Shown: one piece after another, positions 12,278 to 17,693 of the stretch
Layout: each line of letters starts with the position of its first letter
Position numbering within the stretch: position 1 is the first letter of the stretch
Position numbers and translations under genes: made by a program
The notes under the pieces: model-generated
What the model was told of the DNA's origin: nothing
Database searches by the model: none
What the model saw: the letters and a program-made list of their open reading frames with translations, nothing else
Source: a virus
Length of the DNA: 27,962 bases
IMG/VR virus record: IMGVR_UViG_3300023179_000413
Location: 1 to 27,962 of that record
Reading direction: 5' to 3' (one strand)

Positions 12278-15200
12278 CTAATTTCTATAAACTCCGGTAT
12301 AAATATCATCATTTACAGCCGAAGTAAACCATTCTGGTCCTTTATAAAGTTGTCCTTTTGAATCAACCATATCTTTACGATTACCTCCTACTACATCATA
12401 ACTTATTGGCTGTAAAGTTCTATATATTTGTCTAGCTAACATATTTGCTATTAAAAGAGAACTATATCTATCTTTTCTTAATCTTCCTTTTTTACCATTT
12501 GGTAATTTAACTTCTGGAGTATCCCATCGATCTCTAGCATTTGGACCAGTGCTAGTTTGAGTCATAACAATTGTAGTCAATTCATTTTTAAGTTCTTCAA
12601 TTTCTAATATACATTCACTAACACTATCATATATAGGATTTAAATCAGTAGATAAAATATCTTTACCCTCTTTATCTAAAGCTAAACCTAATGTTAAATT
12701 ATCAAATCTTGGAAATAATAATACTTTATCTTCTAAATCTTTTCTTAAACCATGATTAGCCTGACTCGTCCATTCTGCTCTTGCAAATTGAACCATTTCC
12801 AATAAATGTAATCCTGGTTGATTATCAGTATCTTTTGTTTTATCTGTATCTATTATAGGCCATATAAGATGTTCGCCATCTTCTAATTTATTAGGATCAT
12901 GTAATGCTTCTTCTATTGCAACGCCACCGCCCTGAGCATCTATACCTATTTTTGCTGCTGGGAAAGTTTTCATTAAATTACGAATTTTTCTTGCACAATA
13001 TCCATAAAAATCGTGTTCATTAACTAATCCTGTTTTTAATCTTTCTTTAAAATTACTACGATTAGTAGTCCAACAATAAACTATACGACTATGATCAGGA
13101 TGAATTTCTAAAATAGTAATACTAAAATTATCTTGTTCGCTAGCAGGATCTATTCCATAAACATATTTATACTGACCATTACCTTGAGTCACAGCATCAA
13201 ATACTATTTTTTTAGTATTGATAATAATAGGATTATTATCATTAGCAACACAATTTTCTATTAAACTACGTCTGAAAAATCCTTCGCTATCACTAACAAA
13301 ACAAGCTGCATATTCCATATTATAAATCCCGGTGTGGATAGTAGCCTTAGCTCTGCTAACTTGTTTATCATCCATAAATCCTTTAGGAATTAATTCGTAT
13401 GGAATACGAATAATACTATAATCTTTCCAATTAAAATTACTAGGAATTTCTCCTTTAAAAATATCTTGTAATTTATTAGTATCTCCTTTGCTTTCTATAA
13501 TAGCTTTATACCTTTTCCAATATGATGCAAAATGTTTGAAAGCATAATCAGCTGTGCCGCTAATAATAGCTTGATTACCCATTTTTATATTTAGTACTTC
13601 AAGTTCTTCATTCCATAATCCTTGTTTTTTCATTTCATCTTTTCTAGCTTCTTCTTTAACATTTTGTATAGGACTAGCGCTAACAGCAGCGAATCCTGAT
13701 ACTACTGTTTCATAAATATCAGGACTAATAGATGCAAATTCGTCAGCAATAATAATATGTGCTCTTAAACCTCTGATCTTTGAACCATCACCCATTGGAA
13801 TAGCAACTGTCCAACTATCACCAAGTCTTATGGTACATCTGTCTACATCTCGTCTTGGTCCATCATCATTTCCATTAAAGATACTCCTTAATATAGGACT
13901 ATTACGCCATATGGTTTCCATATATTCGAAAATAATTTTACTTTGTCTAAATGCGGCACCAACAACAACAATTTTAGTTCCAGGATAAAAAGCCATGCGT
14001 AAAACACAATATAATCCTAAAAGGAATGAATTATGTGTTACTGTATAATCTTTTGTTAAATATGTATGATCCGGAGTATCTACAGTTATACATTGCATAT
14101 CTTTATATTCATCTAAATATTCTGCTTTTATTATAGAAACATAATTTTCTCCATTAGTTGATTGTTTTTTGATCCTATTTAGTTTTCTTGGAAGTTTTGC
14201 TATTGGTTTAGATGTATTAATATAAACTCTAAAATATTTTGTTCTGTTTTTTATTGTTCCTTGTGGTAGTCTCATTAGTTGTGAAGATCTATCATCAATT
14301 TTTTTAGAACAAGTGATACCTAAACTTCTCAATAAATCTATTAAATCATCAACTAATTTTTCACATGTATTTGTAAACTCTATGGCTCCAGATTTTGATA
14401 TGTGCCCATCTGTATCTATTAGTCCTCTAACTAGTTCTAATCTATCTTCGATACATGAATTTTTATATATCTCTGGAATAAATTTATCTTTACAACCAAC
14501 ATCTAATTTTAGATTTTTAATAATAGAAGTTAATCTATTTCTAATTTTTGATTTATAGTTTATTTTTTTTCCAGATTTATAGACTCTAGTAATAGTAGTA
14601 GAGTCTTTGTCTGTATCTACTATTGTATAATTATAATTAGATTTATCTTTTACTATTTTAAATGTTGGTAATTTATTTTTAAATTTATTAATAATAAAAT
14701 TATCATTGGAGCATATTTTGGGTGTTGCTGTTGTTAAACACCCATCTCCTAGTAAACATCCTAATAAATAGGGGTCTAGAGGAAGTTTTTGTTTTGGTTT
14801 TTGTATAGGTTCACAATTAGGAATTTGATATTTATAAGTTTTTTTCCCATTATTAGATAAAAAAACATGTTGATGAATTATTGTCTTAGTATCTATCGTA
14901 ATTTCTTTGCCATCATTTCTTTTAACAACCCATAGGTGATCTTCGCAACAATCCACTGTTCTTCCATCTAATAGGGTTATTCTACACACTCTTTTTTTAC
15001 CTTGTGGATGAATAGCTATTACATTATGTAACTTACCATCTCTTCCATATATTTTATTACCTATTTTGATATTACCCATTTTAATCCAACCATTATCTGT
15101 TAATATTGGAGTGTCTGTAGTTTCGGCTTTACCCCATCCGCGGCTAGCAATATACATTGGAAAAGCTCTTACCCAAAATTCTTGTAATATATTTATTTGT

Positions 15201-15403
15201 ATAGGATGTAATTCTATATTAAATAGTAGTTTACAAGTAGATCCTAGGTATTTTGGATCTCTTAATAATCGTACTAGATGAAGATCGGGATTCTCAATAT
15301 CAGACTCTAGCCTATTGATCATAGGATTTTTATCAAAATTAATTAATGATAAATCACCTAGACCTAGCCAAGCATCTTCGAATTGAGTATTATTAGATGA
15401 CAT
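12278..15403 (-). CDS. terL: Terminase large subunit, interrupted by an intein
   Basis: The 1041-aa precursor contains a 366-aa intein (residues 93-458), leaving a 675-aa terminase. The N-extein ends ASRGWGK and the C-extein begins SFLLGLYCVL, so the splice restores the Walker A motif SRGWGKS. Walker B is HIIIADEFAS (Asp554 and Glu555). The C-terminal RuvC-fold nuclease shows YGIDPASEQD (Asp752), IGIDAQGGGVAIEEA (Asp822) and a late Asp in RKDRYSSLLIANML. The protein packages DNA through the portal using ATP and cuts concatemers. Downstream is the portal gene. Without splicing the ATPase site would be disrupted, so splicing is presumably essential. Confidence 0.92.
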   Translation of the reverse strand: MSSNNTQFEDAWLGLGDLSLINFDKNPMINRLESDIENPDLHLVRLLRDPKYLGSTCKLLFNIELHPIQINILQEFWVRAFPMYIASRGWGKAETTDTPILTDNGWIKMGNIKIGNKIYGRDGKLHNVIAIHPQGKKRVCRITLLDGRTVDCCEDHLWVVKRNDGKEITIDTKTIIHQHVFLSNNGKKTYKYQIPNCEPIQKPKQKLPLDPYLLGCLLGDGCLTTATPKICSNDNFIINKFKNKLPTFKIVKDKSNYNYTIVDTDKDSTTITRVYKSGKKINYKSKIRNRLTSIIKNLKLDVGCKDKFIPEIYKNSCIEDRLELVRGLIDTDGHISKSGAIEFTNTCEKLVDDLIDLLRSLGITCSKKIDDRSSQLMRLPQGTIKNRTKYFRVYINTSKPIAKLPRKLNRIKKQSTNGENYVSIIKAEYLDEYKDMQCITVDTPDHTYLTKDYTVTHNSFLLGLYCVLRMAFYPGTKIVVVGAAFRQSKIIFEYMETIWRNSPILRSIFNGNDDGPRRDVDRCTIRLGDSWTVAIPMGDGSKIRGLRAHIIIADEFASISPDIYETVVSGFAAVSASPIQNVKEEARKDEMKKQGLWNEELEVLNIKMGNQAIISGTADYAFKHFASYWKRYKAIIESKGDTNKLQDIFKGEIPSNFNWKDYSIIRIPYELIPKGFMDDKQVSRAKATIHTGIYNMEYAACFVSDSEGFFRRSLIENCVANDNNPIIINTKKIVFDAVTQGNGQYKYVYGIDPASEQDNFSITILEIHPDHSRIVYCWTTNRSNFKERLKTGLVNEHDFYGYCARKIRNLMKTFPAAKIGIDAQGGGVAIEEALHDPNKLEDGEHLIWPIIDTDKTKDTDNQPGLHLLEMVQFARAEWTSQANHGLRKDLEDKVLLFPRFDNLTLGLALDKEGKDILSTDLNPIYDSVSECILEIEELKNELTTIVMTQTSTGPNARDRWDTPEVKLPNGKKGRLRKDRYSSLLIANMLARQIYRTLQPISYDVVGGNRKDMVDSKGQLYKGPEWFTSAVNDDIYTGVYRN
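14030..15127 (-). mobile_element. Intein with LAGLIDADG homing endonuclease, class 3-like, in the terminase Walker A
   Basis: Intein of 366 residues, from Ala1 (AETTDTPILTDNGW) to the terminal THN, followed by Ser+1. It lacks the usual Cys/Ser at position 1. It has the three residues that define class 3 inteins: Trp66 two residues after the block B His (EDHLW), Cys346 replacing the block F Asp (MQCITVDTPDHTYL), and Thr364 in block G (VTHN). The endonuclease domain has both LAGLIDADG helices, LLGCLLGDG (about 121-129) and LVRGLIDTDG (about 232-241), each with an acidic residue, so it may still home. Insertion is between Lys and Ser of the P-loop. Confidence 0.9.
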
Positions 15404-15965: not shown

Positions 15966-16443
15966 TGTTTTTATCCTTTTTAACAATTTCTATATAATGT
16001 ATTTTAGTTAATAAATATTGAGCAACTTTTTCAGCATTAGATGATGATCCACAAAATATTACTTTAATATTATGAACTATTTGCCAATCTACTATATGTT
16101 TCATTAAAAATGCTGGAGTAATTTTAACTTTATCCCACAATCTTTTAGGAAGATTAGAACCAATAGGATAGTTTAAGACATTTTCTATATCAAATTCTAA
16201 TAATAAAAATGAATATTTATGTTGAGACAAACGTAATATAGCATCTTTAAATCTTGACTCAACAATATTATTTGCTATTTCATTTACGCTCTTTTTTCTT
16301 TCAATAGCCAGAATGTTCTCAAGGCCCTCTATACTATAATCTCCAGCATCTAATTTTTTATGAGCAACAGTATGCTCTGGGAAATCCCAGGGTTGTTGTT
16401 CTCTAGTATCTATGATTATTGTAAATTCATTATAATTATTCAT
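15952..16443 (-). CDS. ERCC4-type nuclease
   Basis: A 163-aa protein with the ERCC4/XPF nuclease signature: IIIDTREQQPW (residues about 9-19), LDAGDYSIEG, and AIERKKSVNEIANNIV. Asp, Arg-Glu, Gly-Asp-Tyr and Glu-Arg-Lys-Lys are the catalytic-site residues of this family, which cuts branched or flap DNA. The C-terminal part (PAFLMKHIVDWQIVHNIKVIF) matches the rest of the fold; no HhH domain is present, as in other small phage versions. It overlaps its downstream neighbour by 14 bases and the HNH gene upstream by 8. A role in resolving replication or packaging intermediates is inferred. Confidence 0.85.
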   Translation of the reverse strand: MNNYNEFTIIIDTREQQPWDFPEHTVAHKKLDAGDYSIEGLENILAIERKKSVNEIANNIVESRFKDAILRLSQHKYSFLLLEFDIENVLNYPIGSNLPKRLWDKVKITPAFLMKHIVDWQIVHNIKVIFCGSSSNAEKVAQYLLTKIHYIEIVKKDKNNETK

Positions 16444-16705
16444 TACTATTGTCTCTAATAATTTTTAAAAACACCGACTCATAATAACTTTCCATTCCTG
16501 TTATTGCTTTATGATGTTCTTTGCAAAGTGTTATACCATTCATAGGATGAAATCTTAACCCTGGATTATCTGCCCAAGTTTTAATATGATGAGCATTTAA
16601 TTTTTTATTATTTTTACATCCGGGCCACTGGCACTTATATTTATCTCTAGAATAGATTAATTTTCTCCATTTTTTATATTCTGGATCATCATAGTTTCTA
16701 AGCAT
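16436..16705 (-). CDS. HNH endonuclease
   Basis: An 89-aa protein from ATG 16705 (MLRNYDDPEYKKWRKLIYSR), which follows a modest AAGAG ribosome binding site; the longer frame to 16756 lies within the dehydratase gene and is less likely. The HNH fold is clear: CQWPGC zinc pair, LNAHHIKTW (catalytic His), NGITLCKEHH (Asn and His of the motif plus a zinc Cys), then ITGMESYYESVF. HNH proteins encoded near terminase genes often assist DNA packaging cleavage in phages; a free-standing homing nuclease is the alternative. It overlaps the dehydratase gene by 8 bases. Confidence 0.85.
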   Translation of the reverse strand: MLRNYDDPEYKKWRKLIYSRDKYKCQWPGCKNNKKLNAHHIKTWADNPGLRFHPMNGITLCKEHHKAITGMESYYESVFLKIIRDNSNE

Positions 16706-17693
16706 GACTATAACTCTTAATATCATGATCAACCATATCTTGTACCAAAGTGTCAAAAGATATAGAAGGAGTCCAATCTAAAATAGAACGAGCTTTTTTA
16801 TTAGAACCCTTAAGATAGTCTACTTCTGCTGGGCGATATAAATTCATATCAATTTCAACATATTGTTTGTAATCTAAATTAACATAATCAAAAGCTTTTT
16901 TAAGAAAATCTAATACGCTCCATGTTTGTTCTGTACAAATAACAAAATCATCAGGAGAATCTTGTTGCAGCATCAGATGCATAGCATAAACATAATCTTT
17001 AGCATGTCCCCAGTCTCTGCTGGCCTGAAGATTGCCAAGTTTTAATGTTTCGTGGGTAAGATTATTAAGGCGTTGGCCGATATATTTAGTAATTTTACGA
17101 GTAACAAAATTTTCTCCTCTTCGTGGACTTTCATGATTAAATAGTATGCCAGAACAAGTGAATAAATTATAAGCCTCACGATATAATTGAACCATACGAT
17201 GACTAGCTACCTTACTAACTCCATAAGGACTTTGAGGTAAAAGTTCAGTATTTTCATCCTGATATTTATTATCATTATTATCTGTACTATAATTTCGACC
17301 GAACATTTCGCTAGTGCTAGCCTGATAAAATTTAGTATGTTTTGAATATCTTCTTATGGATTCAAGAATATGTGTCACGCCCACAGTATTAATTTCAAAA
17401 GTTGTTACTGGCTGCTTGAAACTAGTTTGAACATGACTTTGAGCAGCCAAGTTGTAGAATTCGTCAGGTTGATATTTGTCAATAATTTGAGCAATGTTTG
17501 ATGAATCTGTAAGATCAAATTCTTCTAAAGTTAAATTAGGATGATGCAGATACTCAGGGGAAATTCGGTCAAAGTTAGTTGAACTAGATCGTCTGTATAA
17601 TCCTACAACATTATAGTTTTTATTTAATAATAATTCAGCCAAATACGATCCATCTTGTCCTGTTATTCCTGATATTAGTGCTATTTTATTCAT
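16698..17693 (-). CDS. gmd: GDP-mannose 4,6-dehydratase
   Basis: A 331-aa short-chain dehydrogenase/reductase. Visible features are the NADP-binding loop GITGQDGSYLAE, the RRSSSTNFDRI loop typical of Gmd, LAAQSHVQTSF, the catalytic STSEMFG, and YGVSKVASHRMVQLYREAY with the Tyr-x3-Lys pair, then NHESPRRGENFVTRKIT. The enzyme converts GDP-mannose to GDP-4-keto-6-deoxymannose, precursor of GDP-fucose, GDP-rhamnose or related sugars. The length is close to bacterial Gmd. Start: GGACTATTC-ATG. It is embedded in the packaging operon between the probable small terminase and the HNH gene. A role in glycan or virion modification is inference; no partner epimerase is in the window. Confidence 0.92.
   Translation of the reverse strand: MNKIALISGITGQDGSYLAELLLNKNYNVVGLYRRSSSTNFDRISPEYLHHPNLTLEEFDLTDSSNIAQIIDKYQPDEFYNLAAQSHVQTSFKQPVTTFEINTVGVTHILESIRRYSKHTKFYQASTSEMFGRNYSTDNNDNKYQDENTELLPQSPYGVSKVASHRMVQLYREAYNLFTCSGILFNHESPRRGENFVTRKITKYIGQRLNNLTHETLKLGNLQASRDWGHAKDYVYAMHLMLQQDSPDDFVICTEQTWSVLDFLKKAFDYVNLDYKQYVEIDMNLYRPAEVDYLKGSNKKARSILDWTPSISFDTLVQDMVDHDIKSYSHA

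Follow-up and report, generated by a model that had tools for sequence, protein, structure and literature searches.

Introduction

Inteins of class 3 have no nucleophile at their N-terminus; they are recognized by a signature of three residues, a Trp in block B (B:12), a Cys in block F (F:4) and a Thr in block G (G:5) (PMC3196547). The roles of the residues in these inteins have been described for DnaBi1 of Mycobacterium smegmatis (Msm) (PMC6195587) and in PMC7664689. In 2020, nr contained 1,701 class 3 inteins, 82.5% of them with LAGLIDADG motifs (PMC7891396). The inteins of mycobacteriophages are found most commonly in the terminase large subunit, TerL (PMC5050341). The same study places the TerL1-a intein between the invariant P-loop Lys of TerL and the next hydroxyl residue (Lys|Thr), assigns TerL1-c, -d and -e to class 3 at other TerL sites, and records that all TerL inteins tested spliced (5/5) and that both of those assayed for cleavage cut DNA (2/2).

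Here, we analyze an intein in the TerL gene of an uncultured phage. The window, by which we mean the whole stretch of DNA analyzed, is a 27,962-bp virus sequence from IMG/VR and probably a fragment. We estimate at about 93% the probability that the Walker A motif of its TerL is interrupted by a class 3 intein of full length, which includes an intact predicted LAGLIDADG homing endonuclease and works as proposed below.

Results

The terL ORF occupies positions 12278-15403 on the minus strand and encodes a 1,041-aa precursor, which would be 675 aa once spliced. The exteins were identified as TerL by a PHROG terminase match (E 1.1e-34), and uninterrupted homologues are 81-88% identical to the C-extein. 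PHROG matches of the same ORF to 'DnaC-like helicase loader' and 'DNA primase' were set aside, because nearly all of their extent falls within the intein (aa 93-458), so that they say nothing about the host protein. The N-extein (15128-15403, minus strand; residues 1-92) ends in ...ASRGWGK, which carries Walker A through its Lys. The C-extein (12278-14029, minus strand) starts with Ser459, the +1 nucleophile, and contains the remainder of Walker A, the rest of the ATPase, the C-terminal part of TerL and the stop codon. The genes around terL are intact and syntenic with those of relatives.

The intein itself lies at 14030-15127 on the minus strand and comprises 366 aa (A1...HN366; precursor residues 93-458). 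It starts with AETTDTPIL, ends with YTVTHN and is flanked by SRGWGK and SFLLGL, which puts the insertion point in Walker A (SRGWGK|S), after Lys92 and before Ser459. A preliminary description of this DNA had given exactly these coordinates, leaving out the strand, and its Ala start and its numbering of W66, C346 and T364 were right as well. It had also placed the insertion between this Lys and this Ser of the terminase P-loop, a placement now borne out by uninterrupted loci. We searched IMG/VR with the whole protein and kept the best 80 of 593 relatives. Among these, 7 (L001-L007) are interrupted at the same position, and 72 match the extein and have no insert. In 69 of these 72 loci the codon boundary is readable and uninterrupted, with GK directly followed by S/T-F, and the loci represent 45 distinct 72-bp site sequences. 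Thus, the insert is in frame in a conserved protein and missing from homologues at the same boundary; the insertion point is defined exactly, and alleles without the intein are common. One further locus, L061, has an insert within which the reading frame of TerL is disrupted, giving two ORFs (L061:47-3156); either this copy is dead or its sequence contains an error.

Another insert was observed in L003, where a GDP-mannose dehydratase-like gene upstream of terL (L003:1940-4102, plus strand) contains an in-frame intein-like sequence (HE|TVTYGTPL...GVIHN|SPRRGE). Its first residue is Thr and the block F position is occupied by Asp, so this insert is probably class 1-like. The window's own copy of the gene (16698-17693) is uninterrupted.

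Splicing blocks A, B, F and G could all be assigned in the TerL intein, which ends in His-Asn followed by Ser as the +1 residue. Cys, Ser and Thr are absent from position 1, which is Ala in the window and Ala, Met or Leu in relatives with an intein at this site. A profile of the splicing domain, compared with PDB sequences, aligned over its full length with Msm DnaBi1 (6bs8) and M. chimaera DnaB1 (6rix). In this alignment, His65/Trp67 of DnaBi1 is matched by His64/Trp66 of the window, Cys118 by Cys346, and Thr137-His138-Asn139 by Thr364-His365-Asn366. Trp66, the B:12 residue, belongs to block B His64-Leu65-Trp66 within CCEDHLW (14930-14938, minus strand); Cys346, the F:4 residue and proposed branch-point nucleophile (14090-14092, minus strand), is aligned with the catalytic Cys of DnaBi1; and the block G THN (14030-14038, minus strand) supplies both the G:5 Thr and the cyclizing Asn. 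The preliminary description had proposed class 3 on the basis of this Trp/Cys/Thr set, and had named in advance the finding that would count against it, namely Cys346 or Trp66 lying outside blocks F or B. The profile alignment places both residues inside these blocks.

The comparison with other inteins points in the same direction. In a side-by-side table, the sampled class 1 inteins have Cys1, a residue other than Trp at B:12 and Asp or Asn at F:4, in contrast to the window and its relatives, which, a few deviations aside, carry the class 3 set. A tree of the splicing blocks, based on 146 columns, on relatives chosen by their similarity to the window and on a sample with no experimentally verified class 3 intein, separated them from the 7 class 1 inteins included (support 99/94). 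The block F Cys was present in 93/93 extracted relatives. Because the loci were extracted with the patterns CCEDH.W and KDYxVTH, which raise their Trp, Cys and Thr counts, the isolate phages found by tblastn and discussed below provide the fairer set. Because this intein is divergent, Pfam PF14890 gave no match in the window, and the intein models of NCBIfam stayed under their cut-off. Class 1 inteins were also sought via PF14890 in two phyla; that of L181 gave none and that of L188 gave a few.

Residues H64, W66, C346, T364, H365 and N366 are invariant among relatives whose inteins are 37-69% identical to that of the window. Comparison with the closest relative, L001, gave a dN/dS of 0.15 for the intein and 0.11 for the C-extein, ratios that are rough because dS is near saturation. 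The window intein is under purifying selection, and the combination of this ratio with the invariant residues places its features beyond chance. An additional Cys is found at intein position 61 (window 14945-14947), close to the N-junction. It occupies the TxxH/DxxH position of block B and is a Cys in the window and in same-site relatives alike.

Two acidic LAGLIDADG motifs were identified, 120-YLLGCLLGDGC-130 with Asp128 (14738-14770, minus strand) and 231-ELVRGLIDTDGH-242 with Asp240 (14402-14437, minus strand). They had been described beforehand as looking intact, and our results agree: LLGCLLGDG and LVRGLIDTDG align with both motifs of PI-SceI, and the region has a LAGLIDADG_3 match above the Pfam cut-off (E 2.8e-9). 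An AF2 model of the intein, built from 7 sequences, had a mean pLDDT of 73.6 and was weak over the last 17 residues. Residues 121-333 of this model gave matches of the I-DmoI and I-Tsp061I type. Superposition of the model covered 312 residues with PI-SceI (Z 23.8, rmsd 3.0) and 120/125 residues with the Msm class 3 splicing domain 6bs8 (Z 14.4, rmsd 2.2).

The window also contains a small HNH endonuclease gene (16436-16756, minus strand), located three genes upstream of terL. It was considered as a partner homing endonuclease and rejected, as it is found in intein-bearing and intein-free relatives alike. Since it is conserved with and without the intein, we regard it as a core gene of this phage family.

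Inteins at this TerL boundary fall into two lineages. Alpha includes the window, L001, L102/L103, L104, L105 and L109, with inteins 55-69% identical (the identical pair L102/L103 aside), while beta includes L002-L007, L107, L111, L112, L119-L121, L134 and others, with inteins 51-95% identical. Between alpha and beta, inteins are 32-40% identical. The window and L002 share 80% identity in the extein and 39% in the intein; the window and L102 share 53% and 58%, respectively. Intein and extein trees conflict strongly. Forcing the alpha carriers into one clade on extein data was rejected (p-AU 4e-60), as was forcing extein clade I into one clade on intein data (p-AU 4e-78), the groups for these AU tests having been picked after the identity table was seen.

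The intein of L005 and L007, both of the beta lineage, was recently transferred. For this pair, dS is 0.18 in the intein versus 0.91 in the C-extein, and third-position identity declines with distance from the intein (0.90 within it, 0.76 in the adjoining C-extein, 0.66 beyond), which is the pattern expected from recent homing with co-conversion. The intein of L109, an alpha member, is cut to 262 aa; the first LAGLIDADG motif is deleted, the second is altered (LMDVHG) and the splicing residues are kept, so that it looks like a case of endonuclease loss with splicing predicted to be retained. The window intein may itself be mobile, as the tree conflict and its intact motifs suggest. Taken together, our data support the idea that two class 3 lineages share one TerL site and move among phages of this family. 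We are more tentative about their history. That alpha and beta invaded the same P-loop boundary independently, now compete and spread among uncultured phages by homing is a scenario to which we give somewhat less than an even chance; alpha and beta as a single clade were not rejected (p-AU 0.18 and 0.36).

Discussion

Our model, drawn by analogy with known class 3 inteins, suggests that after translation Cys346 would directly attack the Lys92-Ala1 peptide bond, generating a branched thioester, and that the N-extein would then pass to Ser+1. Cyclization of Asn366, assisted by His365, would release the intein, and an O-N acyl shift would join Lys92 to Ser459, restoring the P-loop and the packaging ATPase. 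Because the Walker A Lys and Ser adjoin only after splicing, we reasonably infer that the unspliced precursor would be inactive as an ATPase. Independently of splicing, the endonuclease would cut the uninterrupted terL of co-infecting phages at the conserved P-loop codons, and the intein would be copied in.

Could Cys346 be non-catalytic, with Ser+1 attacking the N-junction directly in a class 2-like or degenerate intein that has lost its first residue? Residue 1 is indeed non-nucleophilic, as in class 2. We nevertheless consider this most improbable, given that Cys F:4, Trp B:12 and Thr G:5 together constitute the class 3 signature (PMC3196547), that Cys346 is invariant across same-site relatives down to 37% intein identity, and that the extracted relatives all have the block F Cys where the sampled class 1 inteins have Asp or Asn. 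There is just as little chance that the intein is dead and non-splicing in a defective or relic phage, as is Arth_1007. The catalytic residues are complete, the frame is open and dN/dS is low; TerL is essential, and the neighboring genes are intact and syntenic with relatives. Moreover, Arth_1007 lacks the F:4 Cys (PMC3196547). These observations outweigh the fact that the record is merely a 27,962-bp fragment and that a broken copy is known among relatives (L061).

A slightly better, though still unlikely, alternative is that splicing is conditional and that the intein is retained for regulation, with Cys346 and the adjacent Cys61 forming a redox or stress switch on packaging. H2O2 blocks the splicing of Msm DnaBi1 via a disulfide on the catalytic Cys118 (PMC6195587), and the invariance of Cys61 in same-site relatives makes it a possible redox partner of Cys346. 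Against this, the residue at the Cys61 position is variable across other class 3 inteins, the partner cysteine of DnaBi1 (Cys48) is located elsewhere, and the intein is dispensable, since phages of the same family often have terL uninterrupted.

The main interest of this locus lies in its two-lineage setting more than in the element itself. A phage family with many uninterrupted alleles, two divergent intein types at one site, the reduced intein of L109 and the recent transfer between L005 and L007 allows the homing cycle and the competition for the P-loop site to be observed directly, in phage populations as they occur in nature.

Inteins like this one are frequent in phages and were described earlier; the window holds one more well-formed member of the large class 3 family. 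The preliminary description had called class 3 inteins rare, a view at odds with the number found in nr and with our tblastn results, in which class 3-type inteins occupy the Lys|Ser/Thr boundary of TerL Walker A in the phage isolates TaPaz, N1M2, MIZ5 (T4-like), 489E54 and 65FD. Like the window intein, those of the isolates have Ala1, Trp B:12, the F:4 Cys and THN; they differ in being about 24-32% identical to it and in residing in terminases of other families. A tblastn search with the L002 intein matched 748 phage records, not necessarily all of them class 3. In several public phage records, intein-bearing genes are named 'DarB-like antirestriction', 'helicase' or 'homing endonuclease' and the match is on the intein, which suggests that these names were carried over from inteins.

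TerL1-a (PMC5050341) has the same type of P-loop site as the window intein, in an unrelated phage family and an unrelated TerL. PI-SceI, the yeast VMA1 intein, shares the HINT plus LAGLIDADG architecture and the fold over 312 residues; in contrast, it is a class 1 intein (Cys1), and its sequence similarity to the window is limited to parts of the N-terminal and endonuclease regions. Msm DnaBi1 resembles the window intein in Ala1, in its Trp67/Cys118/Thr137 set, in His138-Asn139, in Ser+1, in an ATPase as the host and in the fold of the splicing domain. Unlike the window intein, it has no homing endonuclease and interrupts another host protein, and in block B it has DxxH (Asp62) where the window has CxxH (Cys61) and class 1 inteins typically have Thr.
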